The notes beneath the pieces are model-generated. The model was not told where the DNA came from, did not search any database, and saw only the letters and a program-made list of their open reading frames with translations. The position numbers and the translations under genes were made by a program. DNA of 64,000 nucleotides from positions 1,364,001 to 1,428,000 of the forward strand of contig NZ_CP121252.1 in assembly GCF_029637705.1 (NCBI RefSeq), given 5' to 3'. Shown piece after piece: positions 19,953-36,678 of this stretch. Numbering within the stretch: position 1 is the first letter of the stretch; each line of letters opens with the position of its first letter. The DNA comes from Citricoccus muralis. Its GTDB lineage: Bacteria > Actinomycetota > Actinomycetes > Actinomycetales > Micrococcaceae.

Positions 19953-20022
19953 ATTGATCCACCCGCACACCCGGAACCGGGCGCGGCGGATCGGAGACCA
20001 TCCTACATCAGAGGCAGGGTGC

Positions 20023-20511
20023 TCAGTCGGAGCTCAGACCCAGATCGCGGCGCAGCTTCGCCACGTGCCCGGTGGCTTTCACGTTGTACTGGGCCAACTC
20101 CACCGTGCCGGACGCGTCCACCACGATGGTGGAGCGGATCAGGCCCTCGTACACCCGGCCGTAGTTCTTCTTCTCGCCCCAGGCCCCGTACTGCTCGGAA
20201 ACGGCATGATCGGCATCGGAAAGCAACGGGAAGGTGAGCTGTTCCTTTTCGGCGAAATTCGCCAGCTTCTTCTGCCCATCCGGAGAAACACCGAGCACGG
20301 CGAAACCCTCGGACGCGAAGGCGGCGATGTTGTCGCGAAAATCACAGGCTTGCTTGGTGCATCCCGGCGTGGAAGCGGCCGGGTAGAAGTAGACGATCAC
20401 GCGCTGACCGGCATAATCGGCCAGCGAAACCTCCTCGCCCTGCTGGTTCGTCAGTGTGAAGGCGGGGGCAGTATCGCCGGGGGACAGGCGTGCCGGGTGA
20501 GTCTCAGTCAT
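20023..20511 (-). CDS. bcp: Thiol peroxidase, Bcp-type peroxiredoxin
   Basis: Bcp reduces hydroperoxides using thioredoxin-type donors. The 162-residue protein begins MTETHPARLSPGDTAPAFTL. It carries the AhpC/TSA-fold active site YPAASTPGCTKQACDF with the peroxidatic Cys in TPGCT (near residue 48) and the second Cys five residues on, the PGCTKQAC arrangement of atypical 2-Cys Bcp enzymes. I chose ATG at 20511 over an upstream ATG at 20583 because the extra 24 residues are not family-like. It is divergent from sufS over about 150 bp, which fits a shared link to oxidative stress and Fe-S repair. Confidence 0.93.
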   Translation of the reverse strand: MTETHPARLSPGDTAPAFTLTNQQGEEVSLADYAGQRVIVYFYPAASTPGCTKQACDFRDNIAAFASEGFAVLGVSPDGQKKLANFAEKEQLTFPLLSDADHAVSEQYGAWGEKKNYGRVYEGLIRSTIVVDASGTVELAQYNVKATGHVAKLRRDLGLSSD

Positions 20512-20660
20512 GGCAACACTGTGGCACCTGGTGCCGGACGCTGGCAACCAGACGTCGGCAGATGTCACCGCGGACACGCGCATCCAGCTGGGTCGATTAG
20601 GCTGAAAGGCGTAGAAAACCGCTATTCAAGCACCGCCAATACCGTGGAGGAGCAGGCTGC

Positions 20661-21971
20661 GTGACGCAGAACTTGGAGCACAATGCACCGCTGACGAGTG
20701 AGGAAGCTGAGCGTATCCGTGCCGACTTCCCATTACTGAGCCCCGATGCTGAGGGGAACCGACTGGTCTATCTGGATTCCGGTGCCACCGCGCAGAAACC
20801 GCAACAGGTGCTCGACGCCGAACAAAACTTTTACCGCAACGCCAACGCGGCCGTGCATCGTGGTGCCCATAGGCTCGCGGTGGAGGCCACCGATCGGTTC
20901 GAGGCCGCGCGCCGCCGGGTTGCCGACTTTATCGGCGCCGACGAACGAGAAGTGGTGTGGACCTCCAACGCCACCGAAGCGCTGAATCTGGTGGCCTACT
21001 CGATGTCGAACGCCACCGCTGGCGCCCAACCCGGTCCCGAAGCCGATCGGTTCCGCCTGCAGCCCGGCGATGAGATCGTGGCCACCGGCATGGAGCACCA
21101 CTCCAACCTGATCCCGTGGCAGGAGCTCGCCGCTCGCACCGGTGCCACCTTCCGCTACATTCCTCTAACCGCTGACGCGCGCCTGGACCTGGATGCTGCC
21201 GCGGAGCTCATCGGCCCGAAGACCCGACTGGTCGCTTTTACCCACGTGTCGAACGTGCTGGGACTGGTCAATGATGTCGACGCCATCGTCGCCTTGGCCA
21301 GGGAAGCTGGCGCGCTCACCGTGCTGGATGCCTGCCAGTCCGCGCCACACCTGAAACTCGACGTGCACCGTCTCGGTGTCGACTTCGCCGCATTTTCCGG
21401 GCACAAGATGCTCGCCCCCACCGGTATCGGCGTGCTCTACGGTCGAGCGGAATTACTCGACGCGATGCCTCCGGTGCTCTTCGGTGGCTCGATGATCACC
21501 ACCGTGACCATGGATCGCGCCGAGTTTTTGCCCGCTCCGCAGCGGTTCGAGGCCGGTACCCAGCGGGTCGCTCAGGCCGTCGGGTTGGCCGCGGCTATCG
21601 ACTATCTAGACGCCGTCGGCATGGACAGGGTCGCTACGTGGGAGGTAGCTCTGGGGCGCCGTCTGATGGAGGGCATCGAATCACTGCCTGGCGTGCGTCT
21701 GCTTGGACCGGCGCTGGATTCCGGCGTCGAACGCACCGGTGCTGTAGCTTTCACGGTGGAGGGGGTCCATCCCCACGACGTCGGCCAGTTCCTGGACGCT
21801 CGCGGCATCGCTATTCGGGTGGGGCACCACTGCGCCGAGCCCCTGCATGGATTCCTGGGGGTGACCGCCTCCACGCGAGCCACCAGCTACCTGTACAACA
21901 CCGAAGCGGACATTGACGCCGCGCTGAATGCCCTGGCGGATGTGCGCGGATTCTTTGGGGTGGCCCGATGA
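20661..21971 (+). CDS. sufS: Cysteine desulfurase SufS
   Basis: SufS takes sulfur from cysteine as a persulfide for Fe-S cluster assembly. The 436-residue PLP enzyme has the PLP-lysine motif AFSGHKMLAPTGIGVLYG and the catalytic Cys in IRVGHHCAEPL. It also has a VYLDSGATAQKPQQVL N-terminus and the VHRGAHRLA segment. GTG at 20661 follows GGAGGAG. It overlaps sufU by 4 nt, so desulfurase and sulfur acceptor are made together. The sufB, sufC and sufD scaffold genes are not in this window. Confidence 0.93.
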   Translation: MTQNLEHNAPLTSEEAERIRADFPLLSPDAEGNRLVYLDSGATAQKPQQVLDAEQNFYRNANAAVHRGAHRLAVEATDRFEAARRRVADFIGADEREVVWTSNATEALNLVAYSMSNATAGAQPGPEADRFRLQPGDEIVATGMEHHSNLIPWQELAARTGATFRYIPLTADARLDLDAAAELIGPKTRLVAFTHVSNVLGLVNDVDAIVALAREAGALTVLDACQSAPHLKLDVHRLGVDFAAFSGHKMLAPTGIGVLYGRAELLDAMPPVLFGGSMITTVTMDRAEFLPAPQRFEAGTQRVAQAVGLAAAIDYLDAVGMDRVATWEVALGRRLMEGIESLPGVRLLGPALDSGVERTGAVAFTVEGVHPHDVGQFLDARGIAIRVGHHCAEPLHGFLGVTASTRATSYLYNTEADIDAALNALADVRGFFGVAR

Positions 21972-22420
21972 GTGCGTTCGAAGCCCTCTACCAGGACCTC
22001 ATTCTTGACCACGCCCAGCGCCGGGTCGGTGAAGCCGAACTGACCGAGGAGCCGGGGGAGTACGAGGCCCGGTCCAAGCAACACAATCCCTTGTGTGGTG
22101 ACCGGATTACGTTGCAGGTCCGCGTCGTCGACGGGCGGGTGGAACAAGTCGAGTGGACCGGAGACGGTTGCGCGATCTCGATGGCCTCGGCCTCCATGCT
22201 CACGGAATTGATGCGCGGTGAGAGTGTTGTTGATTTTGAGTCCACGCTCGCGGTGTTTCGCGAGATGATGGGTTCCCGCGGCCGAGGTGAACCCGACGAA
22301 GACACCCTGGGTGACGCGGTGGCGTTGCACGGCGTGGCGCAGTTCCCGGCACGGATCAAGTGCGCCCTACTGAGTTGGGTCGCCGCTGAAGATGCCATCC
22401 GCCGTAGTTCAGCCGCCTGA
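21968..22420 (+). CDS. sufU: Sulfur acceptor SufU
   Basis: SufU is the zinc-dependent sulfurtransferase partner of SufS in Gram-positive bacteria. The 150 residues show the three conserved cysteines: NPLCGD (about residue 41), GDGCAIS (about 66) and IKCALLSW (about 128), with an ILDHAQRRV N-terminal segment typical of SufU/IscU-like folds. ATG at 21968 overlaps the sufS stop. The short C-terminal AAEDAIRRSSAA tail is normal. Confidence 0.92.
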   Translation: MSAFEALYQDLILDHAQRRVGEAELTEEPGEYEARSKQHNPLCGDRITLQVRVVDGRVEQVEWTGDGCAISMASASMLTELMRGESVVDFESTLAVFREMMGSRGRGEPDEDTLGDAVALHGVAQFPARIKCALLSWVAAEDAIRRSSAA

Positions 22421-22474
22421 CCACCCTGTCGAGGCTCGATTACACGACGCGAAACGCAGAAGGAGGCACCAGCA

Positions 22475-22789
22475 GTGACACCCGAGCAGATCAAGCCCGT
22501 CAGCAAGGCTGCTGCCGCATACGACTCGCTGCGCCGTTCCATCGTGCGCGGGGAGCTTCGGCCCGGCCAGCGGGTCACACTCAAAGTGCTCTCAGACATG
22601 CTCGGGATGAGCCTGACGCCCGTTCGAGAGGCGCTCAATCGGCTCGTTTCTGAAGGTTATGCGGTTCATGACCCCCACCACGGGACGTTCATTGCCGAAC
22701 AGAGTCGCGGCCGCATCGAGCAGGTTTACCGGTTGCGCGGGGTGCTGGTGCTGCTGTTGGTGAGCGTGCTGATTCCGATCGTGTCCTAG
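22475..22789 (+). pseudogene. Truncated GntR-family regulator
   Basis: The first 80 residues are a good FadR/GntR winged helix-turn-helix: AYDSLRRSIVRGELRPG, then LSDMLGMSLTPVREALNRLVSEG and the wing HDPHHGTFIAE. The linker RIEQVYRLRGVL normally leads into a long all-helical ligand (FCD) domain. Here it runs into a hydrophobic stretch VLLLVSVLIPIVS and a stop, giving only 104 residues. A strong AAGGAGG ribosome site remains at 22459. The gene therefore looks like a regulator that lost its ligand domain, through deletion or frameshift. It points at the MFS transporter it may once have controlled. A functional DNA-binding-only protein cannot be excluded. Confidence 0.6.
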
Positions 22790-22803
22790 CTGATCGTCGG
22801 CGA

Positions 22804-22836
22804 CGTCGGGCCGGGTTAGGCGTTCCCGGCCCGACG
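22804..22836. terminator. Hairpin terminator between GntR remnant and MFS gene
   Basis: CGTCGGGCCGGG (22804-22815) and CCCGGCCCGACG (22825-22836) form a perfect 12-bp stem with a 9-nt loop. It lies between the convergent GntR remnant and MFS gene. No T-run is present. The loop contains GGTTAGGCGTT, which is repeated at 22852-22862. Confidence 0.65.
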
Positions 22837-22862
22837 CTTGGTGGCGGACCAGGTTAGGCGTT

Positions 22863-24254
22863 TCACTCTGGCCGTCGGTTGGCTTCGGTGTCCGCGCCGC
22901 GCATAAGCCACAAGGCGAGTGAGCCAACGAGTACGGCCACAGCCACGCTGATGTACACCTCCTGGGGCGTCCACCCACCGTCGAGCAAGGATCCCGTCAC
23001 GATGGGAGCGAGGATCGCGCCGGCCCGACCGATACCGATCGCCCAACCGGAACCGGTGCTACGGACCGTGGCAGGGTAAGACTGCGGGGTGAGTACATAG
23101 AGTCCGGCAATGCAGCCATTGATCAGCATGCCGACCACAATGCCCAGCGCGAGCACGAGTGACACGACGGCGGTGGAGGAGATGAAGAGCACGATCGCCA
23201 CCGAAGCGCCGACGGTGAACCAAAACAGGGTCGACCGGGTGGACCAGCGCGCCGTCAGAACGCCGAACAGCAGTGAGCCGATGGTCCCGCCCAAGGTCAA
23301 CATGATGCCGCCGATCACGCCTTGCTCTTGCGTGAGCCCGGACTCGTTGAGCAGTCGTGGGGTCCACGAGTTGACGAAGTAGAAACCAAACATGATGGCG
23401 AAGAAGGCCAACCAGATCAGCAACGTGGTCCGACGGTTGCGTGCGTTGAGCAACGCACCGATGCCGCGTCCACCGCTCTTTACGGCGGCGGTCCCTTGGT
23501 CGGGGTCGTCAGCACCGTTCGGTGCGAGACTGGTTCCCGTGGTGGTCAGTTCGCGAACGGGTTCTTGGCCGATGCGCCGGGCGATGGCATTGATCTTTTC
23601 CAGGGCCCGATTCGGGCGTCGGGCATAGAGGTAGGACGCAGATTCCGGCATCAGCGCGATGACGAGCACGAGAGAGAACACGGTGAGCACCCCGCCCAGG
23701 GTGTACACGGAACGCCATCCGTGCTCAGCCATGATCCACACGGCTGCCGTTCCGCCCAGGGAGGCGCCCACGCCGTAGCCGGCAGCGTAGATGCTTACGG
23801 CCAACCCGCGCCTTTTTCGGTTGGCGTACTCGGCAGAGAGCACGTTGGTTCCGACGAGGATCCCGCCGATGCCCAGGCCGGTGACGATCCTCCAGATGCC
23901 GAGCTCAGTGGCATTGGACGCCGTGGCGGAAAGGAAGAGGCCAGCCGCGTTCACCACCAGGGACAGAATCGTCATGTTTCGTCGACCGACGCGATCGGCG
24001 ACCGGGCCCAATGTCAGAGAGCCGACCGCCATGCCCACCAACCCTGCGCTGAGCAACAGGCCGAGCACGGAGGCGCTCAAACCGAATTCTTCGGTGACCG
24101 GGGTGGCGGTGAAGGCCATGGCCAGGACATCGTAGCCGTCGAGCGCGTTGAGGAAGGTGCAGATGCCGATGATCACCCACTGATAAAGGCCCATCGGTGA
24201 GTTTTCGATGCGGTTCCGCAGGTCCTGAGAACCACGGTCTGTAACTGCAGTCAT
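22863..24254 (-). CDS. MFS transporter, aromatic acid:H+ symporter type
   Basis: This 463-residue inner-membrane protein has 12 predicted membrane helices. TM1 contains NALDGYDVLAMAFT, close to the DGxD signature of the AAHS (PcaK/BenK) family. Loop 2-3 has GPVADRVGRRNMT (MFS motif A), TM4 carries RIVTGLGIGGILVG, and a long central loop (about residues 205-270) contains the PESASYLYARR segment. Aromatic acids or related organic acids are therefore the likely cargo, imported with protons. ATG at 24254 has AAAGG upstream. It stands alone, opposite a truncated GntR regulator; an inverted repeat upstream may be its operator. Confidence 0.82.
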   Translation of the reverse strand: MTAVTDRGSQDLRNRIENSPMGLYQWVIIGICTFLNALDGYDVLAMAFTATPVTEEFGLSASVLGLLLSAGLVGMAVGSLTLGPVADRVGRRNMTILSLVVNAAGLFLSATASNATELGIWRIVTGLGIGGILVGTNVLSAEYANRKRRGLAVSIYAAGYGVGASLGGTAAVWIMAEHGWRSVYTLGGVLTVFSLVLVIALMPESASYLYARRPNRALEKINAIARRIGQEPVRELTTTGTSLAPNGADDPDQGTAAVKSGGRGIGALLNARNRRTTLLIWLAFFAIMFGFYFVNSWTPRLLNESGLTQEQGVIGGIMLTLGGTIGSLLFGVLTARWSTRSTLFWFTVGASVAIVLFISSTAVVSLVLALGIVVGMLINGCIAGLYVLTPQSYPATVRSTGSGWAIGIGRAGAILAPIVTGSLLDGGWTPQEVYISVAVAVLVGSLALWLMRGADTEANRRPE

Positions 24255-24283
24255 GGCGAAATACCTTTGCCTGTACCTATAGC

Positions 24284-24312
24284 GATAGTTATTGTTTCGC
24301 GACCAAACTATC
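24284..24312. promoter_or_regulatory. Inverted repeat, possible operator of MFS gene
   Basis: GATAGTT (24284-24290) and AACTATC (24306-24312) are exact reverse complements 15 nt apart, 30-58 nt upstream of the MFS start codon. A smaller CTAT-AGCG-ATAG palindrome overlaps the left arm. On the minus strand a TATAGG box lies next to it. The placement would let a dimeric regulator block the promoter. Confidence 0.4.
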
Positions 24313-24419
24313 AGTGAGCGGCGTCACGGGCCACCATGGCGACAGTCACAATATAAGAAATGAGAAAATGAGGTGTCGCGTGGACGTTCGCGGCGGCAAA
24401 AATGGCGGCTGGATACAGC

Positions 24420-24453
24420 TTCGGCCTCGTCACAACGAGGTGACGAGGCCGAA
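24420..24453. terminator. 14-bp hairpin downstream of tRNA-Lys
   Basis: A perfect 14-bp stem (24420-24433 with 24440-24453, starting TTCGGCCTCGTCAC) has an AACGAG loop. It begins 14 nt beyond the tRNA-Lys 3' end on the minus strand and probably ends that transcript. No T-run follows in the minus direction. The 443 bases from 24255 to 24697 hold only the MFS promoter region, this hairpin, tRNA-Lys and about 150 bases with nothing recognisable. Confidence 0.6.
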
Positions 24454-24466
24454 AAATGATGATCTG

Positions 24467-24539
24467 TGCGCCCCCCGGGACTCGAACCCGGAACCTATTG
24501 ATTAAGAGTCAAGTGCTCTGCCAGTTGAGCTAGAGGCGC
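24467..24539 (-). tRNA. tRNA-Lys (anticodon CTT)
   Basis: The 73-nt minus-strand cloverleaf has acceptor GCGCCTC pairing with GGGGCGC, discriminator A, D-arm GCTC/GAGC, and anticodon stem TTGA/TCAA with loop CTCTTAA (anticodon CTT, codon AAG). The T-arm CCGGG/CCCGG has loop TTCGAGT. The first anticodon-stem pair is a C-T mismatch. CCA is not encoded. Confidence 0.95.
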
Positions 24540-24697
24540 AGACCGTTGCTGACGAATTCCACTGTGTGGCGTGCTGTGCAACGAAGAAAGACTCTACCAG
24601 AGGATTTTCCTGGATGCGAAATCGATGGGACGTGGCGTCGGACACGCTCCACCGGCTGGCACAGGAGCAGCGGATGTTCGACGGATCCGCAGTGCAG

Positions 24698-25180
24698 TTA
24701 TTGCGCAGAAGACGGGTCCGAAGGGGTGTAGAACGAGTCTAGGGTGTCCATGAACAACGTCATGAAGCGCTCGAAATCTTCGGCGTCGGAGGTCTGCTCC
24801 AACTGCAGTTGATCGTCGACGTCGTGCGAGGTATCCCATGTCACCGGAATCCGGGGCGTGGGCTGGACGTCGAACCACACGCGATACCCCGTGACGGATT
24901 CGACCTGGTATCCCGAACCTGTGTCGGCCAGAGTCGCCACGTTGGACAGTTCGATGGTGGTATTGGACCAGGTCGGGGTCTCGGTGGTGGGCCGATCGGG
25001 ATCGAGGGTGTCCGAAGGGACGGGGCAGAGCACCATTTCTAGGGGCTGTCGCCGATAGCCGATCAGCAGCGGGTCCGAGGATCCGGAAGTGTTCGCGTAG
25101 ACGACGTTGTAGTCGCCGTAGTTGAAAATCCGAGAATCGAAAACCTCGCGCAACGTCTTCTTGAGGTCTTCGCTGTCCAT
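24698..25180 (-). CDS. Hypothetical protein
   Basis: I do not recognise this 160-residue acidic cytosolic protein. It begins MDSEDLKKTLREVFDSR and ends with a helix DAEDFERFMTLFMDTLDSFY. Between them is alternating polar/hydrophobic sequence suggestive of beta strands (GDYNVVYANTSG, ESVTGYRVWFDVQ). The overall length and helix-strand-helix layout recall small YbjN/SseB-like proteins, but no motif proves it. ATG at 25180 lies 7 nt after a TAGACT box, which suggests a leaderless message and decides the start over ATG at 25204. It is divergent from ilvD. Confidence 0.6.
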   Translation of the reverse strand: MDSEDLKKTLREVFDSRIFNYGDYNVVYANTSGSSDPLLIGYRRQPLEMVLCPVPSDTLDPDRPTTETPTWSNTTIELSNVATLADTGSGYQVESVTGYRVWFDVQPTPRIPVTWDTSHDVDDQLQLEQTSDAEDFERFMTLFMDTLDSFYTPSDPSSAQ

Positions 25181-25187
25181 GGAGACC

Positions 25188-25193
25188 AGTCTA
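25188..25193 (-). promoter_or_regulatory. -10 box of leaderless hypothetical gene
   Basis: TAGACT on the minus strand is followed by GGTCTCC (7 nt) and the ATG at 25180. No Shine-Dalgarno sequence is present. Confidence 0.5.
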
Positions 25194-25332
25194 CGGTGGC
25201 ACACGGGGTGCTCCGGTTACCCCGATCACAACGTTTCTCAATTGTGACCGGAGAACGTACAGATTTTTGGCATGTGGACCGTGATTGAGGAGACATCTTC
25301 GTTACGAAGGGCCGCATTCGATAACGCGGTCG

Positions 25333-25338
25333 TATGAT
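25333..25338 (+). promoter_or_regulatory. -10 box of leaderless ilvD
   Basis: TATGAT is followed by GAGCCA (6 nt) and the ilvD ATG at 25345. No ribosome site lies between, so the transcript probably starts at the ATG. The -35 region is not recognisable. Confidence 0.6.
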
Positions 25339-25344
25339 GAGCCA

Positions 25345-27111
25345 ATGAGCTCTCGCACCGATGAATCAGCAGGGCCTGAGGCTCCCGACGCAGCAGCCGC
25401 CGGCACCACGGGCCAAAATCCTACGATCGATATCAAGCCTCGTTCTCGCGACGTCACCGACGGCATGGAACGCGCTCCTGCGCGCGGCATGCTACGCGCC
25501 GTGGGCATGGGCGACGACGATTTTGCCAAGCCGCAGATCGGCATCGCCTCGTCCTGGAACGAGATCACCCCTTGCAACCTGTCGCTAGACCGACTGGCTG
25601 ATGCAGCGAAAAACGGCGTGCACGCCGGTGGGGGATACCCCTTGCAGTTCGGCACCATCTCGGTGTCCGACGGCATCTCGATGGGTCACGACGGCATGCA
25701 CTACTCGCTGGTGTCACGCGAGGTCATCGCCGACTCCGTCGAGACCGTGATGATGGCCGAGCGCCTCGACGGTTCCGTACTGTTGGCTGGTTGTGACAAG
25801 TCCCTGCCCGGCATGCTCATGGCCGCGGCGCGACTCGACCTGGCCAGTGTCTTCGTCTACGCCGGATCGACTATGCCCGGCTACGCCACCCTGTCTGACG
25901 GGGTGGAGCGTCAGGTCACTCTCATCGACGCGTTCGAAGGCGTGGGGGCCTGCGCGCGCGGAACGATGAGCCAGGAAGACTTGGACAGGATTGAACGTGC
26001 CATCTGCCCGGGCGAAGGGGCTTGCGGCGGGATGTACACCGCTAACTCGATGGCGTCCGTGGGCGAGGCCCTGGGCATGTCCATCCCCGGCTCGGCTTCC
26101 CCACCCTCGGCCGATCGTCGTCGCGACGCCGACGCACGTGCTGCCGGTCAGGCTGTGGTGAACCTGCTCCGGAAGGGGATTACCGCCCGTGACATCCTCA
26201 CGAAGAAGGCGTTCGAGAACGCCATCGCTGTGATGATGGCCTTTGGTGGTTCCTCCAATGCGGTGCTGCACCTGCTGGCGATTGCTCGCGAGGCCGGCGT
26301 GGATCTGCGTCTCTCCGACTTTAACCGGATCGGCGATAAGGTTCCGCACCTGGCGGACATGAAGCCGTTCGGACAGTACGTGATGACCGATCTCGACAAG
26401 ATCGGCGGCGTGCCGGTGGTCATGAAGGCCCTGCTGGACGCGGGTGTGCTGCACGGCGATGCGTTGACCGTGACCGGCAAGACCGTGGCCGAGAACCTGG
26501 CCGACGTCAACCCTCCGGAACTGGACGGCAAGGTGCTGCGCAAGATGGATAATGCGCTGCACCCTAGTGGTGGTCTCACGGTGCTGCACGGCACCCTGGC
26601 GCCGGAAGGTGCTGTGGTGAAGTCGGCCGGATTCGACGCCGATGTCTTCGAGGGCACGGCGCGCGTCTTTGAACGCGAACGCGCCGCGATGGATGCGCTC
26701 TCCGAGGGCAAACTGAAGGCTGGTGACGTCGTGGTGATCCGCTATGAAGGCCCCAAGGGTGGTCCGGGTATGCGCGAAATGCTCGCCATCACCGGTGCCA
26801 TCAAGGGTGCGGGTCTGGGCAAGGATGTCTTGCTGCTCACCGATGGTCGCTTCTCCGGGGGCACCACCGGCCTGTGTATTGGTCATATTGCCCCCGAGGC
26901 CGCCGTAGGTGGACCCATCGGGTTGGTCGAGGACGGCGACATCATCCGTGTCGACATCGGAGGTCGGTCCATCGAGCTGGATGTGGACGAGGCCGAGCTG
27001 GAGCGCCGTCGTGAAAACTGGACGCCGATTCAGCCGAAGTTCACCACCGGCGTGCTGGGCAAATACGGCCAGCTCGTGCACTCCGCCGCCGAAGGCGCCT
27101 ACTGCGGCTAA
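25345..27111 (+). CDS. ilvD: Dihydroxy-acid dehydratase
   Basis: IlvD is an Fe-S enzyme that dehydrates dihydroxy-isovalerate and dihydroxy-methylvalerate in valine and isoleucine synthesis. ATG at 25345 gives 588 residues. Visible family features are [17 protein letters not shown] (a ligand Cys), [49 protein letters not shown], and C-terminal [13 protein letters not shown] plus [18 protein letters not shown]. An in-frame ATG at 25285 exists, but the TATGAT box 6 nt before 25345 points to the downstream start. It precedes the ilvBNC attenuator and is probably a separate transcript. Confidence 0.95.
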
Positions 27112-27143
27112 GGTGACGACCCCGGTCTAGCAGATCATGATGA

Positions 27144-27180
27144 CCCCGCGAGTCTCACAGCACAGCTGAGGCTCGCGGGG
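27144..27180 (+). terminator. Terminator hairpin after ilvD
   Basis: CCCCGCGAG (27144-27152) pairs with CTCGCGGGG (27172-27180), 9 bp, around a 19-nt loop in which CTCA/TGAG can pair as well. It lies 32 nt after the ilvD stop and 30 nt before the ilvB promoter, so it insulates the two units. There is no T-run. Confidence 0.6.
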
Positions 27181-27209
27181 ACTTATGATGAACACGTGGC
27201 TCAGTCTCG

Positions 27210-27238
27210 TTGACACGGGCGGGAAGTTTGGACATGAT
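27210..27238 (+). promoter_or_regulatory. Promoter of the ilv leader and ilvBNC
   Basis: TTGACA (27210-27215), a 17-nt spacer and CATGAT (27233-27238) form the best -35/-10 pair in the window. The leader peptide ATG lies 6 nt after the -10 box, so transcription should start at that codon. Confidence 0.75.
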
Positions 27239-27244
27239 GTAAGC

Positions 27245-27289
27245 ATGTCCAACACGGAACGCGTCGTCGTTATCGAGCGCATGGCCTGA
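27245..27289 (+). CDS. ilvBNC leader peptide (attenuator peptide)
   Basis: A 14-codon open frame reads MSNTERVVVIERMA and stops at TGA 27287-27289. Residues 7-10 are Val-Val-Val-Ile, the amino acids made by the operon it precedes. It has no ribosome site, and its ATG falls exactly where transcription should begin. Just downstream are a long stem and a terminator with seven T residues. This is the classic arrangement of ribosome-mediated attenuation; Corynebacterium glutamicum ilvBNC is known to use a leader peptide without a ribosome site. Translation here is inferred. Confidence 0.75.
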   Translation: MSNTERVVVIERMA

Positions 27290-27331
27290 GTTCAACACTC
27301 AGCACGGGCGAAGAACTCGCCGCCATGCGCT
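27276..27331 (+). promoter_or_regulatory. Attenuator stem overlapping the leader peptide
   Basis: AGCGCATGGC (27276-27285) pairs perfectly with GCCATGCGCT (27322-27331), and inside it GAGTTC (27288-27293) pairs with GAACTC (27313-27318). The left arm covers the last codons and stop of the leader peptide; the right arm directly touches the terminator stem. A ribosome paused at the Val/Ile codons would disturb this fold. I could not identify a convincing antiterminator helix by eye. Confidence 0.6.
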
Positions 27332-27373
27332 AAACCCCGAGCAGGCACACCAGCCGACTTTCGGGGTTTTTTT
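27332..27373 (+). terminator. Intrinsic terminator of the ilv attenuator
   Basis: AAACCCCGA (27332-27340) pairs with TCGGGGTTT (27361-27369), and a run of seven T residues (27367-27373) follows, overlapping the right arm. It is the only textbook intrinsic terminator in this part of the window and stands 123 nt before the ilvB start. The 385 bases between ilvD and ilvB contain the ilvD terminator, promoter, leader peptide, stem, this terminator, and a further GC hairpin (around 27431-27461) before ilvB. Confidence 0.75.
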
Positions 27374-27496
27374 GTTGGATATCCGAATGAGCTGGCCACA
27401 CATCAGTAGACGGAATCCTCCGCCACAGAGGGCGGACGCCCCGGAACCCGCCGGGGTGGCACGAATGCAGATCACGAATCAACCGAGGCACAGCCA

Positions 27497-29365
27497 ATGA
27501 GTTCTGGAACACGGATCACCCCAGCGGTGATGTCCGCCCACAGCGGTCGCGATAAGCGCGATCAGACCGAATCCGCCGAATCCCTAGTACCCGGGCCGAA
27601 CAACATGGTGGAACCGACCTCGATGAAGGGCTCCGCGGCGATCGTCCGCTCGCTGGAAGAAATGGGAGTCACCGACGTCTTCGGTCTTCCCGGCGGCGCC
27701 ATTCTGCCGACCTACGATCCGCTGATGGACTCGAAGAAGATCCGCCACGTCCTGGTCCGTCACGAGCAGGGCGCCGGTCACGCAGCCCAGGGCTATTACT
27801 TGGCCACCGGACGTCCCGGTGTGGCCATTGCGACCTCCGGCCCGGGGGCGACCAACCTGGTGACGGCGATCGCCGACGCGCACATGGACTCCCAGGCCGT
27901 GGTGTTCATCACCGGTCAGGTCGGATCCCAGATGATCGGCACCGACGCCTTCCAGGAAGCCGACATCGTGGGCATCACCATGCCGATCACCAAGCACTCC
28001 CGTCTGGTGACCCGCGCCCAGGACGTGCCGCAGGCCCTGGCCGAGGCGTTCTTCATCTCCACCACCGGTCGGCCCGGTCCGGTACTGGTGGATGTCACCA
28101 AGGATGCCCAGGAAGGTCTGATGGACTTCTCCTGGCCGCCGAAGATCGACCTGCCCGGCTACCGCCCCGTGCTGCGTGGCCACGCTAAGCAGGTGCGCGA
28201 GGCCGCCAAGCTGATCCAGGAAGCAGAGCGCCCCGTGCTCTACGTCGGCGGTGGTGTGTCCCGAGGTCACGCCTCCATCGAGTTGCGCGAATTGGCCGAA
28301 GAAATCAACGCTCCGGTGGTCACCACTCTGACCGCTCGCGGCGTGTTCCCGGACTCGCACCCTCAACACCTGGGCATGCCCGGCATGCATGGCGCCGTCT
28401 CGGCCGTCTCCGCACTGCAGATGTCTGACCTGCTGATCACGCTCGGGGCCCGCTTCGACGACCGCGTGACCGGCCAGCTGGTCAGCTTCGCCCCGAACGC
28501 GAAGGTGATCCACGCGGACATCGACCCGGCCGAAATCTCCAAGAACCGTCCTGCCGATGTGCCGATCGTGGGCTCCGTGAAGGAGATCATCCCCGAGTTG
28601 ACGGAAGCGGTGCGTGAAACGCGCAAGACGACCGAGGGCCCGGATCTCACCGAGTGGTGGCGGATTCTGAACCGCATCCGCGAGACCTACCCGATGGGGT
28701 ACACGCCCACCGAGGACGGGCTGATGGCTCCGCAGGAAGTCATCAAGCGCATTTCAGAGGCCTCCGGTCCCGAGGCTACGTATGTGGCCGGGGTGGGCCA
28801 GCACCAGATGTGGGCCTCGCAGTTCGTCAAGTACGAACGTCCCCACCAGTGGCTGAACTCCGCCGGACTGGGCACCATGGGCTTCGCCGTCCCGGCCGCC
28901 ATGGGTGCCAAGGTGGGTGAACCTGACCGCGTGGTCTGGGCCATCGACGGCGACGGCTGCTTCCAGATGACCAACCAGGAGCTTGCCACTTGCGTGATCA
29001 ACCAGATCCCCATCAAGGTGGCCGTCATCAATAACTCCTCGCTGGGCATGGTGCGTCAGTGGCAGACCCTGTTCTATGACGCCCGCTATTCCAATACCGA
29101 TCTCAACACCGGTCATGACACCGCACGGGTCCCGGACTTCGTCAAGCTCGCTGACGCCTACGGTTGCGTGGGCCTGCGTTGCGAGCGCGAAGAGGACCTG
29201 GACGCCGTGATCGCCGAGGCCATGTCGATCAACGACCGTCCGGTCATCGTCGATTTCGTCGTCTCGCGTGATTCGATGGTGTGGCCGATGGTGCCCTCGG
29301 GCGTGTCCAACGACGACATCCAAGTGGCCCGAGACATGACGCCTGAGTGGGCAGAGGAGGACTGA
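27497..29365 (+). CDS. ilvB: Acetolactate synthase large subunit
   Basis: IlvB is the ThDP-dependent catalytic subunit that condenses pyruvate with pyruvate or 2-oxobutyrate, the first common step to Val, Leu and Ile. The 622 residues begin with a 40-residue variable tail, then [16 protein letters not shown], the [14 protein letters not shown] segment and the catalytic Glu in [14 protein letters not shown]. The ThDP/Mg motif [16 protein letters not shown] ends at [11 protein letters not shown] at 27497 has GAGGCA upstream; the ATGs at 27533 and beyond would shorten only the variable tail. It forms an operon with ilvN (4 nt apart) and ilvC, under the upstream attenuator. Confidence 0.96.
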
Positions 29366-29369
29366 GACC

Positions 29370-29882
29370 ATGTCACGACACACACTCTCTGTGCTGGTAG
29401 AAGACGTGCCCGGTGTGCTGACCCGTGTGGCCAGCCTGTTCGCCCGTCGTGCGTTCAACATCGACTCTCTGGCCGTGGGACCGTCGGAGACCCCGGGGCT
29501 GTCCCGGATCACCGTCGTCGTCGACGCCGAGGGCGATCTGCTCGAGCAGGTCACCAAGCAGCTGAACAAGCTGATCAACGTGATCAAGATCGTGGAGCTC
29601 ACTCCCGACGCCTCCGTGCAGCGCGACCACATGTTGGTCAAGGTTCGCTCTGATGCCGCCACCCGCGCCTCCGTGGTGCAGGCAGTGGAGCTGTTTCGCG
29701 CCTCCGTGGTGGACGTATCCACGGATGCGATCACCATCGAGGCCACCGGCTCCCTGGACAAGCTCCACGCCCTGCTTGAAGTACTCGAACCCTTCGGCGT
29801 GCGTGAACTGGTCCGCTCCGGCACCATCGCCGTCGGCCGCGGCGCCAAGTCGATGACCGATCGCGCGCTCAACAAGCACTGA
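29370..29882 (+). CDS. ilvN: Acetolactate synthase small subunit
   Basis: IlvN is the regulatory subunit that activates IlvB and gives feedback inhibition by valine. The 170 residues contain an N-terminal ACT domain (HTLSVLVEDVPGVLTRVASLF, then FNIDSLAVGPSETPGLSRITVV) and the C-terminal ALS_ss_C region ending in RELVRSGTIAVGRG. ATG at 29370 follows GGAGGAC. It lies between ilvB and ilvC in the standard order. Confidence 0.95.
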   Translation: MSRHTLSVLVEDVPGVLTRVASLFARRAFNIDSLAVGPSETPGLSRITVVVDAEGDLLEQVTKQLNKLINVIKIVELTPDASVQRDHMLVKVRSDAATRASVVQAVELFRASVVDVSTDAITIEATGSLDKLHALLEVLEPFGVRELVRSGTIAVGRGAKSMTDRALNKH

Positions 29883-29917
29883 ACACCCTTGACCCCCTAG
29901 ACCCGCAACATCACTAA

Positions 29918-30958
<1,041 letters not shown>

Positions 30959-31012
30959 TCAACACCGACGCGCGGTGACGGGCCGACGCCGGCCCGATAC
31001 CCCTGATCGAGG

Positions 31013-31045
31013 ACGGCGGGACCCCACCCAGGTGGGTCCCGCCGT
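31013..31045 (+). terminator. Terminator after ilvC
   Basis: ACGGCGGGACCC (31013-31024) pairs with GGGTCCCGCCGT (31034-31045), 12 bp with a 9-nt loop that can pair further. A short TGT follows. It separates ilvBNC from serA. Confidence 0.75.
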
Positions 31046-31102
31046 TGTCCATTTCACAGCTTCACCTGACGGCATCGGTGTGCACCGGCACCGTCGTCGT
31101 TC

Positions 31103-31108
31103 TAAAAT
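31103..31108 (+). promoter_or_regulatory. Possible -10 box of serA promoter
   Basis: TAAAAT lies 66 nt upstream of the serA start in the 216-bp gap after ilvC. The -35 hexamer at the right distance is weak. Confidence 0.4.
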
Positions 31109-31174
31109 CGAATCGGCCCTCCGAAGAATCCTCCGTGTGGGCTCACCCCTGCAGACGAGTGGAAAGTATTGACC

Positions 31175-32776
31175 GTGTCAAAACCCGTTGTCCTGATCGC
31201 TGAAGAACTGTCGCCCGCAACCGTGGATGCCCTCGGACCTGATTTCGAGATCCGCTCCACCGACGGCGCCGACCGTGCTCGTCTGCTCGCTGACCTCCCC
31301 GGGGCCGATGCCGTGCTGATCCGCTCGGCCACCCAGATGGACGCTGAGGCCATTGCCGCGGCCCCCGATCTGAAGATCATCGCCCGCGCTGGTGTGGGTC
31401 TCGATAACGTGGACACCCGCGCGGCCACCGACGCCGGCGTCATGGTGGTCAATGCGCCCACCTCCAACGTCATCTCCGCCGCCGAACTCACCTGCGGCCA
31501 TATCCTCGGTGTGGCCCGCAACATTGCCCCCGCCAACGGCGCGCTCAAGGCAGGGGAGTGGAAGCGCTCTAAGTACACCGGTGTCGAGCTCTACGAAAAG
31601 ACCCTCGGCATTATCGGCCTGGGCCGCATCGGCGCCCTGGTGGCTGAGCGCATGAAGGCGTTTGGCATGAAAGTTGTTGCCTACGACCCCTACGTCACTG
31701 CCGCCCGTGCACAGCAGATCGGCGCCCAGTTGCTGGGCCTGGATGAGCTGCTGGAGACCGCCGACTTCGTGACCATCCACATGCCGCGCACCCCCGAAAC
31801 GCTGGGCATGATCTCCGATGACCAGTTCGCCCGGATGAAGGACACCGCCTACGTGATCAACGTGGCCCGCGGTGGACTCATCGACGAAGACGCACTGGGC
31901 CGCGCCCTGGAGGCCAAGACCATCGGTGGCGCCGCTGTTGACGTGTTCGTCAAGGAGCCCGCCGTGGACCTGGACTTCTTCGGCTACGACAACGCCGTGG
32001 TCACCCCTCACCTGGGCGCCTCCACCGCCGAGGCCCAGGAGAAAGCTGGCATCTCGGTCGCCAACTCCGTGCGCCTGGCGCTGGCCGGGGAACTCGTTCC
32101 CGACGCCGTCAACGTGGCCGGCGGAGCCATCGACCCCTACGTGCGCCCCGGCATCCCGCTGGTGGAGAAGCTGGGCCGAGTGCTCACCTCGCTGCTGCAC
32201 CAGAAGTCCCTGGCGGCTGTTGAGGTCGTCGTCGCCGGTGAGCTCGCCGAACTCAATGTCGACTCGCTGCGCCTGGCCGCACTGAAGGGTGTCTTCACCG
32301 ACGTCGTTTCCGGGCAGGTCTCCTACGTCAACGCGCCCCTGCTGGCTGAGCAACGCGGCGTGGACGTGCGCCTGACCACCACCCCCGAGTCTCCCGCCTA
32401 CCGCAACACCATCACGGTGCAGGGCGTCGCTGCCGACGGCACTCAGGCCGCCGTCACCGGCACGTTGACCGGACCGAAGCAGATGCAGAAGCTCGTGGGC
32501 ATTAACGGCTATGATTTCGAAGTGGCCCTCACCGACCATTTGCTGGTGTTCAACTACGCCGACCGCCCCGGCGTGATCGGCCTGATCGGTGCACGCCTGG
32601 GTGACGCCCAGGTCAACATCGCCGGCATGGATGTCTCCCGTTCGGACTCGGCGGATGAGGCACTGGCCGTGCTCACCCTGGACTCTGACCTTCCGGAGGG
32701 CACCACCGAGGCGCTGGCCGCCAGCATCGAAGCGTCCATGGTCGCCGAAATCAACCTGGAGGACACCGGCCGATGA
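31175..32776 (+). CDS. serA: D-3-phosphoglycerate dehydrogenase
   Basis: SerA oxidises 3-phosphoglycerate, the first step of serine synthesis. GTG at 31175 has GGAAAG 8 nt upstream and gives 533 residues; TTG at 31169 is too close to that site. It has the NAD motif GIIGLGRIG near residues 145-153, NVARGGLIDEDAL with catalytic Arg/Glu neighbourhood, and the TPHLGAST histidine. A C-terminal intervening domain is followed by an ACT domain (LLVFNYADRPGVIGLIG), the long actinobacterial form that can be inhibited by serine. It overlaps metG by 4 nt. Confidence 0.95.
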   Translation: MSKPVVLIAEELSPATVDALGPDFEIRSTDGADRARLLADLPGADAVLIRSATQMDAEAIAAAPDLKIIARAGVGLDNVDTRAATDAGVMVVNAPTSNVISAAELTCGHILGVARNIAPANGALKAGEWKRSKYTGVELYEKTLGIIGLGRIGALVAERMKAFGMKVVAYDPYVTAARAQQIGAQLLGLDELLETADFVTIHMPRTPETLGMISDDQFARMKDTAYVINVARGGLIDEDALGRALEAKTIGGAAVDVFVKEPAVDLDFFGYDNAVVTPHLGASTAEAQEKAGISVANSVRLALAGELVPDAVNVAGGAIDPYVRPGIPLVEKLGRVLTSLLHQKSLAAVEVVVAGELAELNVDSLRLAALKGVFTDVVSGQVSYVNAPLLAEQRGVDVRLTTTPESPAYRNTITVQGVAADGTQAAVTGTLTGPKQMQKLVGINGYDFEVALTDHLLVFNYADRPGVIGLIGARLGDAQVNIAGMDVSRSDSADEALAVLTLDSDLPEGTTEALAASIEASMVAEINLEDTGR

Positions 32777-34377
32777 GCTCCACGCCCGACCGCCGCTACT
32801 ATGTGACCACCGCGATCGCCTATCCCAATGGCGAGCCGCACATTGGTCACGCCTATGAGTACATCGGCGCCGACGCGATGGCCCGGTTCAAGCGCCTGGA
32901 CGGTTACAACACCTATTTTCTGACCGGCACCGACGAGCACGGTCAGAAAATGCAGCAGACCGCCGAGAAGCTCGGGATCACCGTTGCCGAGCTGGCCGCG
33001 CGCAATTCGGCCCAGTTCAAGCGAATCGACGACGAGGTGCTGGGCATCTCCTACGACCGGTTCATCCAGACCACCGACCCCGACCACCACGTCACCGCCC
33101 AGGAGCTGTGGCGGCGGATGGAGGCTAACGGGGACATTTACCTGGACCGGTACGCCGGTTGGTATTCGGTGCGCGACGAGCGGTTCTTCACCGAAGACGA
33201 AACCGAGGTAGCCGAGGACGGCACCCGCACCGCTGTCGAGACCGGCACCGAGGTCACCTGGACCGAGGAGGAGTCCTACTTCTTCCGGCTCTCGGCCTAC
33301 CAGGACAAGCTCCTGGAGCTCTACCGGACCAACCCGGAATTTGCCGCACCCCGATACCGGTTCAACGAGGTCATCCGCTTCGTCGAATCCGGTTTGGAGG
33401 ACCTGTCCATCTCCCGGACCTCCTTCGACTGGGGCATCGACGTGCCCGAATCCAGCACCGGCATGACGCCGTCCGCCCATCACGTGATGTACGTATGGGT
33501 GGACGCACTGAGTAACTACCTCACCGGTTCCGGGTTCCCGAACGAGTCCTACACCCAGCGCTGGCCCGCCGACCTGCACGTCATCGGCAAAGACATCTCT
33601 CGCTTCCACTGTGTGTTCTGGCCCGCGTTCTTGATGTCGGCCGGTATTGAGTTACCGCGTCGGGTCATCATCCACGGGTTCCTCAACAACCGTGGCGAGA
33701 AGATGTCGAAGTCGCTGGGCAACGTCGTCGGACCCGAGGAATGGGTCAACCAGTACGGACTCGACACCGTGCGCTACTTCCTGCTGCGCGAGTTCAGCTT
33801 CGGCGCCGATGGCTCCTATTCGCATGAGGCCGTCGTGGGCCGGCACAACGCGGATCTGGCGAACAACCTGGGTAACCTCGCCCAGCGTTCCCTGTCCATG
33901 GTGGCCAAGAACTGCAACACGGCCGTGCCCACTCCCGGCGAGCTGACGGAGGCCGACCAGGGGCTACTGGACGCCGTCGAGGCGCTGCTGGAGCACTCCC
34001 GGGCCGCCTACGAGATCCAGGACTTCCACGGCGCGCTCGAGCACACCTGGAGCGTGCTGGCCAAGGCCAACGCCTACTTCGCCGACCAACAGCCCTGGGT
34101 GCTGCGGAAAACCGACACTGCGCGTATGGAAACCGTGCTCTGGGTGACCCTGGAAACCGTGCGTCGAATCGCCCTGCTGGTGCAACCCGTGCTGCCCACC
34201 GCCGCGGGACGCCTGCTGGACCTGCTGGGAATCGATGCCGACGGCGACGCCGGGGCAACGAACGCCTCGGGTGCCGGCGCTCGCTCCTTTGCAGCATGGA
34301 ACGATTCCCTGGTTCCCGGAGCAGCACTGCCAAAGCCGGAACCGGTGTTCCCACGCTACGAAGAGCCCACCGAATAG
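32773..34377 (+). CDS. metG: Methionyl-tRNA synthetase
   Basis: MetG charges tRNA-Met. The 534 residues have the class I HIGH motif (EPHIGHAYEY, H23-H26) and KMSKS at about 310-314 in NRGEKMSKSLGNVV. The connective domain carries SVRDERFFTEDETEVAED and TWTEEESYFF without the CxxC zinc knuckle, as in the mycobacterial type of MetRS. There is no C-terminal tRNA-binding domain. It starts inside the serA stop codon (ATGA), so it is translationally coupled to serine synthesis, an unusual place for metG. The following leuB has its own apparent promoter. Confidence 0.95.
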   Translation: MSSTPDRRYYVTTAIAYPNGEPHIGHAYEYIGADAMARFKRLDGYNTYFLTGTDEHGQKMQQTAEKLGITVAELAARNSAQFKRIDDEVLGISYDRFIQTTDPDHHVTAQELWRRMEANGDIYLDRYAGWYSVRDERFFTEDETEVAEDGTRTAVETGTEVTWTEEESYFFRLSAYQDKLLELYRTNPEFAAPRYRFNEVIRFVESGLEDLSISRTSFDWGIDVPESSTGMTPSAHHVMYVWVDALSNYLTGSGFPNESYTQRWPADLHVIGKDISRFHCVFWPAFLMSAGIELPRRVIIHGFLNNRGEKMSKSLGNVVGPEEWVNQYGLDTVRYFLLREFSFGADGSYSHEAVVGRHNADLANNLGNLAQRSLSMVAKNCNTAVPTPGELTEADQGLLDAVEALLEHSRAAYEIQDFHGALEHTWSVLAKANAYFADQQPWVLRKTDTARMETVLWVTLETVRRIALLVQPVLPTAAGRLLDLLGIDADGDAGATNASGAGARSFAAWNDSLVPGAALPKPEPVFPRYEEPTE

Positions 34378-34393
34378 ACCCCCACAGAAAGGG

Positions 34394-34399
34394 TAGACT
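34394..34399 (+). promoter_or_regulatory. -10 box of leaderless leuB
   Basis: TAGACT is followed by GCAACA (6 nt) and the leuB ATG. A GAAAGGG sequence lies further upstream, inside the promoter, at a distance (12 nt) poor for a ribosome site. Confidence 0.55.
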
Positions 34400-34405
34400 G
34401 CAACA

Positions 34406-35479
34406 ATGTCTTCCAGCTCACATTCCGCATTGAATCTCGCCGTCATCGGCGGCGACGGCATCGGCCCGGAAGTTACCGCAGAAGCCCTGAAAGTCATGCG
34501 AGCGGCCTCCGCTGCCGAGGGCGACGCCGAGATCACCGCCACCGAATACCCGCTGGGCGCAGCCCACTGGCTCGAGACCGGTGAAACCCTCAACGACGAG
34601 ACTATCGAACGGCTCCGCGGCCACGACGCCATCCTCTTCGGCGCTGTCGGCGCGGCCCCCGACGACACCCGCATCCCCTCCGGGATCCTGGAGCGCGACG
34701 TGCTGCTGAAGCTGCGGTTCACCTTCGACCACGGCGTCAACATCCGCCCCGCCGTCCTCTACCCTGGGGTGCGTTCTCCGCTGGCCGAGCCGGGGACCAT
34801 CGACTTCGTCGTCTTCCGCGAAGGCACCGAAGGCCTCTACGTAGGCAACGGCGGTGTGGTGCGTCAGGGGACTGAACAGGAAATCGCCACCGAGTCGTCC
34901 GTCAACACCGCCTACGGCGTGGAGCGGGTCGTGAGGGCCGCCTTTGAGTTTGCCGCCACCCGGGAACGCAAACACGTCACCCTGGTGCACAAGCACAACG
35001 TGCTGCTGTTCGCGGGCCGGCTCTGGAACCGGATCGTCCACCAGGTGGCCGCCGAGTTCCCGCAGGTCACCCACGACTACCTGCACGTAGACGCAGCGAC
35101 CATCTTCATGACCACCGATCCGGGGCGCTTCGATGTGATCGTCACTGACAATATGTTCGGCGACATCATCACCGACCTCGCCGCCGCCGTCACCGGGGGC
35201 ATCGGCATGGCCGCCTCGGGCAACATCAACATTCACGGCACCGCGCCGTCGATGTTCGAGCCCGTTCACGGCTCCGCACCCGATATTGCCGGTCAGCAGA
35301 AGGCCGATCCCACCGCCGCGATCCTCTCCGGAGCGTTGCTGCTGGAACGCTACGGCCGTCCCGGCGCTGCTGCACGCATTCACCGCGCGGTGTGGGATGA
35401 CGTCGCCGCCCACGCAGCCGGTCCCTCGGCGCGCAGCACCGCGCAGGTCGGAGACGACATCGCCGCCGCCCTGGCGTAG
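34406..35479 (+). CDS. leuB: 3-isopropylmalate dehydrogenase
   Basis: LeuB oxidatively decarboxylates 3-isopropylmalate in leucine synthesis. The 357-residue enzyme has [19 protein letters not shown] at the N-terminus, [19 protein letters not shown] with substrate Arg residues, and the [23 protein letters not shown] Asp/metal segment shortened to [11 protein letters not shown] here. A C-terminal [12 protein letters not shown] loop binds NAD. The short actinobacterial form is typical. It is separated from leuCD by 9 kb but shares the pathway, and ilvE follows 65 nt downstream. Confidence 0.95.
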
Positions 35480-35544
35480 GCGCACCCACTCGCACCGTAT
35501 CGGCCAGTTCGACCACGACTGACCCTGATGAGGAAAGGCACATC

Positions 35545-36678
35545 GTGACCATCGACTTCGAGATCCAGGCCCATCCGTCCCCGCTGGGAGACGAGGCCCG
35601 TCACGAGATTCTCAGCAACCCCGGATTCGGGGACCACTTCACGGATCACATGGTGACGATTGACTGGACGGCGGACCTGGACGCCCAAGCCGCGGCCGTC
35701 GCCTCCGGGGACTTCCTCAACATTCAGGGTCACTGGCACAACGCCCGGCTCGAGCCCTTCGGGCCGATCAGCATGTCCCCGGCCTCGGCCGTGTTGCACT
35801 ACGGTCAGGAGATCTTCGAGGGGCTCAAAGCCTACCGGCATGCGGATGGCTCCATCTGGACGTTCCGCCCCGAGGCCAACGCCGCCCGACTGAACCGTTC
35901 CGCCCGTCGTCTGGCGCTGCCGCAGCTGCCCGAAGAGGCGTTCCTGGAAGCCATCAGACTGCTGGTCGCCCACGACCACCAGTGGGTTCCCGACGGCGAC
36001 GGCGAGTCCTTGTACTTGCGCCCGTTCATGATCGCCACGGAAGAATTCCTGGGGGTGCGGCCCTCGCGCACCGTGTCCTTCCGGGTGATCGCTTCGCCCG
36101 CCGGTAACTACTTCGGCGGCGAGCTGAAGCCGGTCTCCATCTGGGTCTCCCGCGACTACGCCCGTGCCGGGGTCGGCGGCACCGGGGTCGCCAAGTGCGG
36201 TGGCAACTACGCCGCCTCACTGGCACCCCAGCTGGAAGCGGCCGCCCGCGGCCACGCCCAGGTGCTGTTCCTGGACCCGTTGCATGACAACTCGATCGAG
36301 GAACTCGGCGGGATGAACGTGTTCTTCGTTTTCGCCGACGGACGCCTGGTCACCCCGGAACTCACCGGCACCATCCTGGAGGGCGTCACGCGTTCCTCGG
36401 TACTGCAGATCGCCCGCGATCACGGCCACACCGTGGAAGAACGCCGTATCACCCTCGACGAGTGGAAAACCGGGGTCGCCTCCGGTGAGATCACCGAGGT
36501 ATTCGCCTGCGGCACCGCAGCCGTCATCACCCCCATCGGTGCGGTGCAGGATGGCGAGGAGATCATCGAATCACCCGCCGGGGATCACGCCGCCACCCTC
36601 AAAATCCGCAAGGAACTTCTTGACCTGCAGACCGGTCGCGGTGAAGACCGCCACCAGTGGATGCACCGCCTCGTCTGA
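35545..36678 (+). CDS. ilvE: Branched-chain amino acid aminotransferase
   Basis: IlvE is a fold-type IV PLP enzyme performing the last transamination to Val, Leu and Ile. The 377 residues have LHYGQEIFEGLKAYRH, LYLRPFMIATE, the PLP lysine in GVAKCGGNYAASL near residue 217, the DGRLVTPELTGTILEGVTR segment and EVFACGTAAVITPIG. GTG at 35545 has AGGAAAGG upstream. It lies directly downstream of leuB. Confidence 0.95.
   Translation: MTIDFEIQAHPSPLGDEARHEILSNPGFGDHFTDHMVTIDWTADLDAQAAAVASGDFLNIQGHWHNARLEPFGPISMSPASAVLHYGQEIFEGLKAYRHADGSIWTFRPEANAARLNRSARRLALPQLPEEAFLEAIRLLVAHDHQWVPDGDGESLYLRPFMIATEEFLGVRPSRTVSFRVIASPAGNYFGGELKPVSIWVSRDYARAGVGGTGVAKCGGNYAASLAPQLEAAARGHAQVLFLDPLHDNSIEELGGMNVFFVFADGRLVTPELTGTILEGVTRSSVLQIARDHGHTVEERRITLDEWKTGVASGEITEVFACGTAAVITPIGAVQDGEEIIESPAGDHAATLKIRKELLDLQTGRGEDRHQWMHRLV

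Follow-up and report, generated by a model that had tools for sequence, protein, structure and literature searches.

A predicted ribosome-gated attenuator with a leaderless leader peptide upstream of ilvBNC in Citricoccus muralis and its relatives

The DNA between ilvD and ilvB of Citricoccus muralis appears to encode a ribosome-mediated transcription attenuator of the ilvBNC operon with a leaderless leader peptide, a reading to which we assign a probability of about 0.82. The element was analysed in a window of 64,000 nucleotides, meaning the whole stretch of DNA examined, taken from a genome that is a single contig of 3.13 Mb; ilvD lies upstream of the leader, which is followed by ilvB-ilvN-ilvC-serA (Table 1). 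An earlier note on this DNA had proposed attenuation of ilvBNC through a leaderless leader peptide rich in branched-chain amino acid (BCAA) codons and a terminator, and that proposal is most likely correct. The element belongs to a known kind of leaderless BCAA attenuator, to which the Micrococcaceae and neighbouring families can now be added. Its predicted anatomy, its conservation, the covariation of its base pairs and the arrangement that would let the position of the ribosome control formation of a helix, P1, are the parts of this reading that are carried by sequence analysis.

The promoter, the ATG six bases beyond the -10 box (at 27245), the encoded peptide and the terminator with seven T residues were all found where the earlier note had placed them. 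A promoter scan of an 801-nt region returned exactly the 27210/27233 site, with a 10/12 match and 0.1 matches expected in shuffled sequence. The pattern of TTGACA, a spacer of 16-19 nt, NANNNT, six bases and ATG occurs three times in the 3.13-Mb genome (once when reversed), and among those three only the occurrence in the window opens a BCAA leader. The ilvB gene is preceded by a short ORF that carries a run of BCAA codons, and the four BCAA residues previously noticed at positions 7-10 are read as V7 V8 V9 I10. A BCAA run of four within 13 codons is expected in about 2% of cases by chance, so that taken by itself it is weak evidence; the case is carried by conservation.

Table 1. Features of the ilvB leader region and its flanking genes, in coordinates of the window
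Feature	Position	Strand	Details
ilvD	25285-27111		
-35 box TTGACA	27210-27215	+	read in the sequence and found by the promoter scan
-10 box CATGAT	27233-27238	+	17-nt spacer after the -35 box; read in the sequence and found by the promoter scan
Leader ORF MSNTERVVVIERMA plus TGA	27245-27289	+	14 codons; start predicted at +1
Control codons GTC GTC GTT ATC	27263-27274	+	V7 V8 V9 I10
P1 5' arm AGCGCATGGC	27276-27285	+	within the final codons of the leader
Inner hairpin a, CTGAGT/ACTCAG	27286-27302	+	27286-27291 with 27297-27302; includes the stop codon
Inner hairpin b, GGCGA/TCGCC	27307-27321	+	27307-27311 with 27317-27321
P1 3' arm GCCATGCGCT	27322-27331	+	abuts the terminator directly
Terminator hairpin AAACCCCGAG ... 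TTCGGGGTTT	27332-27369	+	27332-27341 with 27360-27369; 10 pairs including A-U
U-tract	27367-27373	+	seven T
ilvB	27497-29365	+	acetolactate synthase large subunit; heads the regulated operon
ilvN	29370-29882	+	acetolactate synthase small subunit
ilvC	29930-30958	+	ketol-acid reductoisomerase
serA	31169-32776		

Collectively, 138 ilvB upstream regions were scanned (80 named loci, with 30 and 28 more from further relatives), and a short BCAA-rich ORF was found behind a promoter in 86 of them, the other 52 having no leader match. Three false matches were dropped by eye before counting (in L005, a locus that probably has a true leader with a poor promoter, and in L063 and L103), as were two duplicate leaders (L085 and L089), leaving 81. 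The gap between the -10 box and the start codon, for which 4-10 nt were allowed, is 6 nt in 56 of these, 7 nt in 23, and 5 and 8 nt in one each; the start codon is ATG in 62 and GTG in 19. A stricter scan (promoter match of at least 8/12, start codon 6-7 nt after the -10 box, and a BCAA cluster), applied to the 136 regions of adequate length, gave 73 leaders against 0.6 in dinucleotide shuffles. Among the 80 named loci the leader ORF is present in 40, and 35 of the 40 without it are Microbacteriaceae, going by the genus in the record name. No leader ORF was found in any of those 35 loci (among L022-L080), two of them with an upstream region shorter than 300 nt, and at E<=0.01 the P1-terminator model matched none of them; five of them compared with Rfam yielded nothing credible, the one match lying far below its gathering score.

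Judged by IlvB, Candidatus Yaniella excrementigallinarum (Micrococcaceae, 78%) is the closest named relative, with two further Micrococcaceae genomes standing closer still (85% and 83%). The closest leader peptides to MSNTERVVVIERMA are MSNTRLVVVIQRLA and MFSTGCSRRIVVIQRVA, followed by MSKTLVVVM in G015 and MSKTLLVVI in Candidatus Yaniella. The run, whose loss in close relatives the earlier note had held to speak against attenuation, is not lost: it reads LVVVI in the nearest genome, IVVI in the next, LVVVM in G015 and LLVVI in Candidatus Yaniella. The composition of the run in Val, Ile and Leu varies among close relatives, and a run without Leu therefore does not extend the known mechanism, as had been suggested. 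In the G015 and Candidatus Yaniella leaders the stop codon follows directly upon the run; because these ORFs stop earlier and yet keep the RNA of the P1 arm, the arm is conserved as RNA and not as peptide.

Reading frame and codon choice point the same way. When the five codons before the P1 arm were anchored on P1, blind to frame, the fraction of BCAA codons in the predicted phase was 0.84 for 58 distinct order-level leaders (a set previously selected for a BCAA ORF) and 0.75 for 22 distinct phylum-level leaders found by a structure model that takes in 15 upstream bases; in the other two phases it was 0.04-0.09 in both sets. Codons that are rare elsewhere are favoured in the leaders, with GTA making up 82 of 172 Val codons and CTT 62 of 131 Leu codons, compared with 4% and 2%, respectively, in six ORFs of the window. 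In the window's own run GTT is the single rare codon.

Beyond the run, the end of the ORF pairs with downstream RNA to form P1, of 10 bp in the window. The earlier note had described a 10+6-bp stem, of which the 10-bp part stands as P1, while the 6-bp part is inner hairpin a and the second inner hairpin had been missed; its 9-bp terminator is likewise present, with 10 pairs if the A-U pair is counted. The whole leader folds to -54.6 kcal/mol, against -36.9 +/- 3.8 in 200 shuffles (z -4.65), none of which folded as low. An intrinsic terminator between the leader ORF and ilvB is recognised here from sequence and folding; an automated terminator scan reported none, presumably because the loop exceeds the scan's 8-nt limit. 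A terminator is present in 71 of the 81 leaders, and in 59 of those 71 there is a P1 helix at least 6 bp long whose outer end falls -3 to +2 nt from the terminator start, against 10.0 in shuffles, which rules out that P1 adjoins the terminator by chance. These 59, chosen by that property, are the leaders of the folding tests described below; the distance from the conserved end of P1 to the C-core of the terminator is 2-3 nt in 50 and 0-4 nt in all 59.

Covariation supports P1. In 55 sequences aligned to a structure model, R1, both partners had changed in 83 cells of the P1 and terminator pairs, compared with 30.1 in shuffles (none of 500 reached that count), and 94.6% of the P1 cells were paired, counts that were made on a model-fitted alignment (A2) leaning toward the model, an alignment by MAFFT (A1) having set the terminator two columns off. 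The covariation score was 0.304, and at most 0.095 when the partners were slid by 1-3 columns; anchored pair counts made without the fitted alignment, on rows selected for a helix of at least 6 bp, agree at P1 positions 4, 5, 6 and 8. One P1 pair is A-T, C-G and G-C in the window and the two nearest genomes, the encoded residue being M, L and V.

R1 matches 46 of 59 relatives, including 28 of 37 genomes in the same family, and 45 of its 48 matches lie on the same strand as ilvB and within 700 nt before it, the other three being on other contigs of G050 and G051. In a sample of the phylum it matches 29 of 296 genomes at E<=0.001, and 25 of 26 phylum-level loci have ilvB downstream, the remaining one, L161, being a short locus. 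In one family, which we infer to be the Mycobacteriaceae, 105 of 121 genomes match at E<=0.05. Another matched group is probably Streptomyces, because six model-found loci carry exactly the published S. lividans IlvL peptide, MRTRILVLGKRVG, with the same P1 beside the terminator. R1 misses all seven sampled genomes of one genus (g249) that may be Corynebacterium. In a group from another part of the phylum (L147, L154, L156, L158, L160, L161, L162, L164 and L168) the run LVLIT, LVLIS, LVLIR, VLLIT or ILVVT is followed directly by TAG, whose last bases can open the P1 arm (TAGCGC; TAGGCGC in L164), such that the stop codon adjoins or overlaps P1; reading these loci revealed no evident leaderless start. 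Leaderlessness is accordingly predicted from sequence solely for the order-level, Streptomyces-type and mycobacterial-type leaders.

The element did not coincide with a curated RNA family: the covariance models of Rfam 15, T-box and ilvB-OMG among them, matched nothing in the leader at E values up to 10 when run on positions 20000-36000 of the window, and nothing in the leaders of seven related loci at E values up to 1. A T-box hinted at by GGGTGGCAC at 27454-27462 was dropped in the absence of an Rfam match.

In constrained folding the ribosome was taken to reach 13 nt beyond the first nucleotide of its A-site codon, and the RNA up to that point was masked. Folding with and without a ribosome footprint, which the earlier note had proposed, gave P1 a probability of at least 0.5 in 58 of the 59 leaders when the first run codon occupies the A-site, and in 0 of 59 when the ribosome is at the stop codon; without a ribosome P1 formed in 34 of 59, the window included. 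The first run codon is 14-23 nt upstream of P1 in 58 of 59 leaders, and in the window a ribosome would leave all 10 P1 pairs free at V7, seven at V8, four at V9 and none at I10. Covariation and constrained folding thus indicate a helix over the end of the ORF that is gated by ribosome position. In the same folding model the terminator has a probability of at least 0.87 in all three ribosome states in 59 of 59 leaders. Nine leaders (L004, L006, L007, L008, L010, L011, L014, L097 and L102) have a P1 probability of 0.07 or less without a ribosome, and in L010 and L014 codons near the start of the ORF pair instead with the interior of P1 (TTCGTTACC with GGTAACGAA), a pairing absent from the window that might possibly act as an anti-antiterminator.

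From these features the following mechanism can be drawn. Transcription would start at or beside A27245, and the ribosome would load on the bare AUG. With ample Val and Ile it would reach the UGA at 27287-27289, where its front edge would mask the P1 5' arm, and with P1 blocked the terminator would end transcription. With uncharged tRNA-Val the ribosome would wait at V7-V8, its leading edge having reached the outer end of P1 or a position just within it; the helix would then form during the stall, and RNA polymerase would read through into ilvB. Judged from homologues, the stalled state should be the ON state, because the operon makes the amino acids that are sensed and because in M. tuberculosis a change of LVVI to AAAA is reported to abolish induction, with expression staying low (PMC13236596).

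Any route by which P1 might defeat the terminator can only be suggested, since the two share no paired bases; as a counterpoint, the terminator forms in the folding model with or without P1. The earlier note had identified no antiterminator, and the wider comparison upholds and extends this observation: an upstream complement to the terminator 5' arm was no better than in shuffles in 58 of 59 leaders (p<=0.05 in L054 alone; 0.26 in the window and 0.06 in L083), so that a classical overlapping antiterminator of the trp type was rejected as a general feature. We tentatively suggest that the ribosome-gated P1 might block termination sterically across much of the Actinomycetota, with the overlap described for C. 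glutamicum as a derived special case. P1 would end 0-4 nt before the G-C core of the terminator without pairing to terminator bases, and the RNA exit of the polymerase could not hold both helices, which would be mutually exclusive only while the polymerase is present. Among the papers listed by a literature search confined to those outside subscription, none was recognised as an account of steric or adjacent-hairpin antitermination. A simple rule that P1 means ON would, moreover, predict the opposite of the reported effect of a start-codon mutation in the C. glutamicum leader, which lowers expression by 80% (PMC11857589), because P1 of the window forms without a ribosome.

It is also conceivable, if somewhat doubtful, that P1 and the terminator compete through a real overlap of bases (a boundary trinucleotide, with branch migration) and that the element is an ordinary overlapping attenuator missed by thermodynamic folding. 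The C. glutamicum antiterminator (36-79) and terminator (77-113) are described as having three bases in common, and mutations at 110-112 of that terminator as raising expression seven- to eight-fold (PMC11857589); in the window, P1 touches the terminator. The first pair position outside P1 is paired in 18 of 51 leaders against 15.7 in shuffles (49 of 1000 as high), and a one-base extension of P1 is possible because of this marginal enrichment. Such an overlap is opposed by the second outside position, which is unenriched (14 against 11.2; 169 of 1000 shuffles as high), by the lack, in 58 of 59 leaders, of an upstream complement to the terminator 5' arm beyond chance, and by 47 of 47 distinct distant leaders (from 52 loci) in which P1 ends 0-3 nt before the C-core, although these were found with a model that contains the P1-terminator spacing and the helix finder favours CGC/GCG.

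That P1 is instead a pause or synchronising hairpin, or an aid to termination within a cluster of hairpins, antitermination being set by the distance between ribosome and polymerase, seems to us unlikely. A joint action of neighbouring hairpins in intrinsic termination has been reported (PMC8355165), the C. glutamicum change G37A, in the antiterminator stem, is reported not to lower AHAS activity (20.0 against 13.0; PMC11857589), and the terminator forms in every modelled state; as a termination aid, however, P1 would make the stalled state OFF, contrary to M. tuberculosis, where removal of the control codons leaves expression low and uninducible. Far less probable again is that the leader is a relic or constitutive, with ilvBNC regulated otherwise and the small ORF incidental. 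Substitution of the presumed control codons in the S. coelicolor ilvB leader is reported to have had no effect (in PMC1262725), a result at odds with the proposal for the window, and the loci with the S. lividans peptide share the structural type of the leader in the window; neither ORF nor element was seen in the 35 presumed Microbacteriaceae loci. The maintenance of frame, codon choice, covariation and position across the order and beyond nevertheless argues against a relic.

Control of ilvB genes by uORF attenuation has already been proposed as common (PMC10272879), and the leader in the window resembles the C. glutamicum ilvBNC attenuator, or ilvB-II motif, which is described as a 15-codon BCAA leader with a helix over the end of the ORF and then a terminator, before the same operon (PMC11857589, PMC10272879). 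Transcription there is reported to start one nucleotide from the leader start codon, and a change of VVV to AAA in the leader to abolish valine-dependent expression (PMC11857589). Since the S. lividans ilvL, MRTRILVLGKRVG, is also reported to be transcribed leaderless (PMC8079986), a start codon at +1 does not extend the mechanism in the way the earlier note had envisaged. In contrast to the C. glutamicum account, with its trinucleotide common to antiterminator and terminator and its proposed anti-antiterminator, P1 of the window merely abuts the terminator and is predicted by folding to be stable without a ribosome. The M. tuberculosis ilvB1NC leader, as described in PMC13236596, similarly has a BCAA run (LVVI), an antiterminator covered by a ribosome at the stop codon and a terminator with a U-tract; it appears to differ in peptide sequence and P1 interior, and its mechanism is backed by reporter evidence, whereas that of the leader in the window is predicted from sequence. 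The Streptomyces ilvL leaders (PMC8079986, PMC1262725) share leaderlessness and, in the six loci with the S. lividans peptide, P1 beside the terminator. By analogy only, small hairpins likewise form the antiterminator that decides read-through in ANTAR systems, where they are bound by protein (PMC3369931), while the gate in the window would be the ribosome. In papers outside subscription, the literature search found no attenuating ilvB leader peptide for Arthrobacter and no leader-peptide transcription attenuation for the Micrococcaceae. Such comparisons indicate one design of control codons, P1, terminator and near-fixed spacing beneath the separately described Streptomyces and mycobacterial leaders, and the abutting helices raise for the published models the point of how the antiterminator works.

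A few minor features flank the element. A tRNA gene lies on the minus strand upstream of ilvD (24467-24539), and a strong hairpin without a T-run, CCCCGCGAG...CTCGCGGGG, just 3' of ilvD (27144-27180) is possibly the end of the ilvD transcript. Between the terminator and ilvB there are tandem hairpins at 27419-27436 (TCCGCC/GGCGGA) and 27438-27457 (GCCCCGG/CCGGGGT). The spacer between terminator and ilvB is shorter in the L084 and L085 leaders, and a pair of hairpins also occupies the equivalent position in the two nearest genomes (L082 and L083), with bases that are changed yet still pair.
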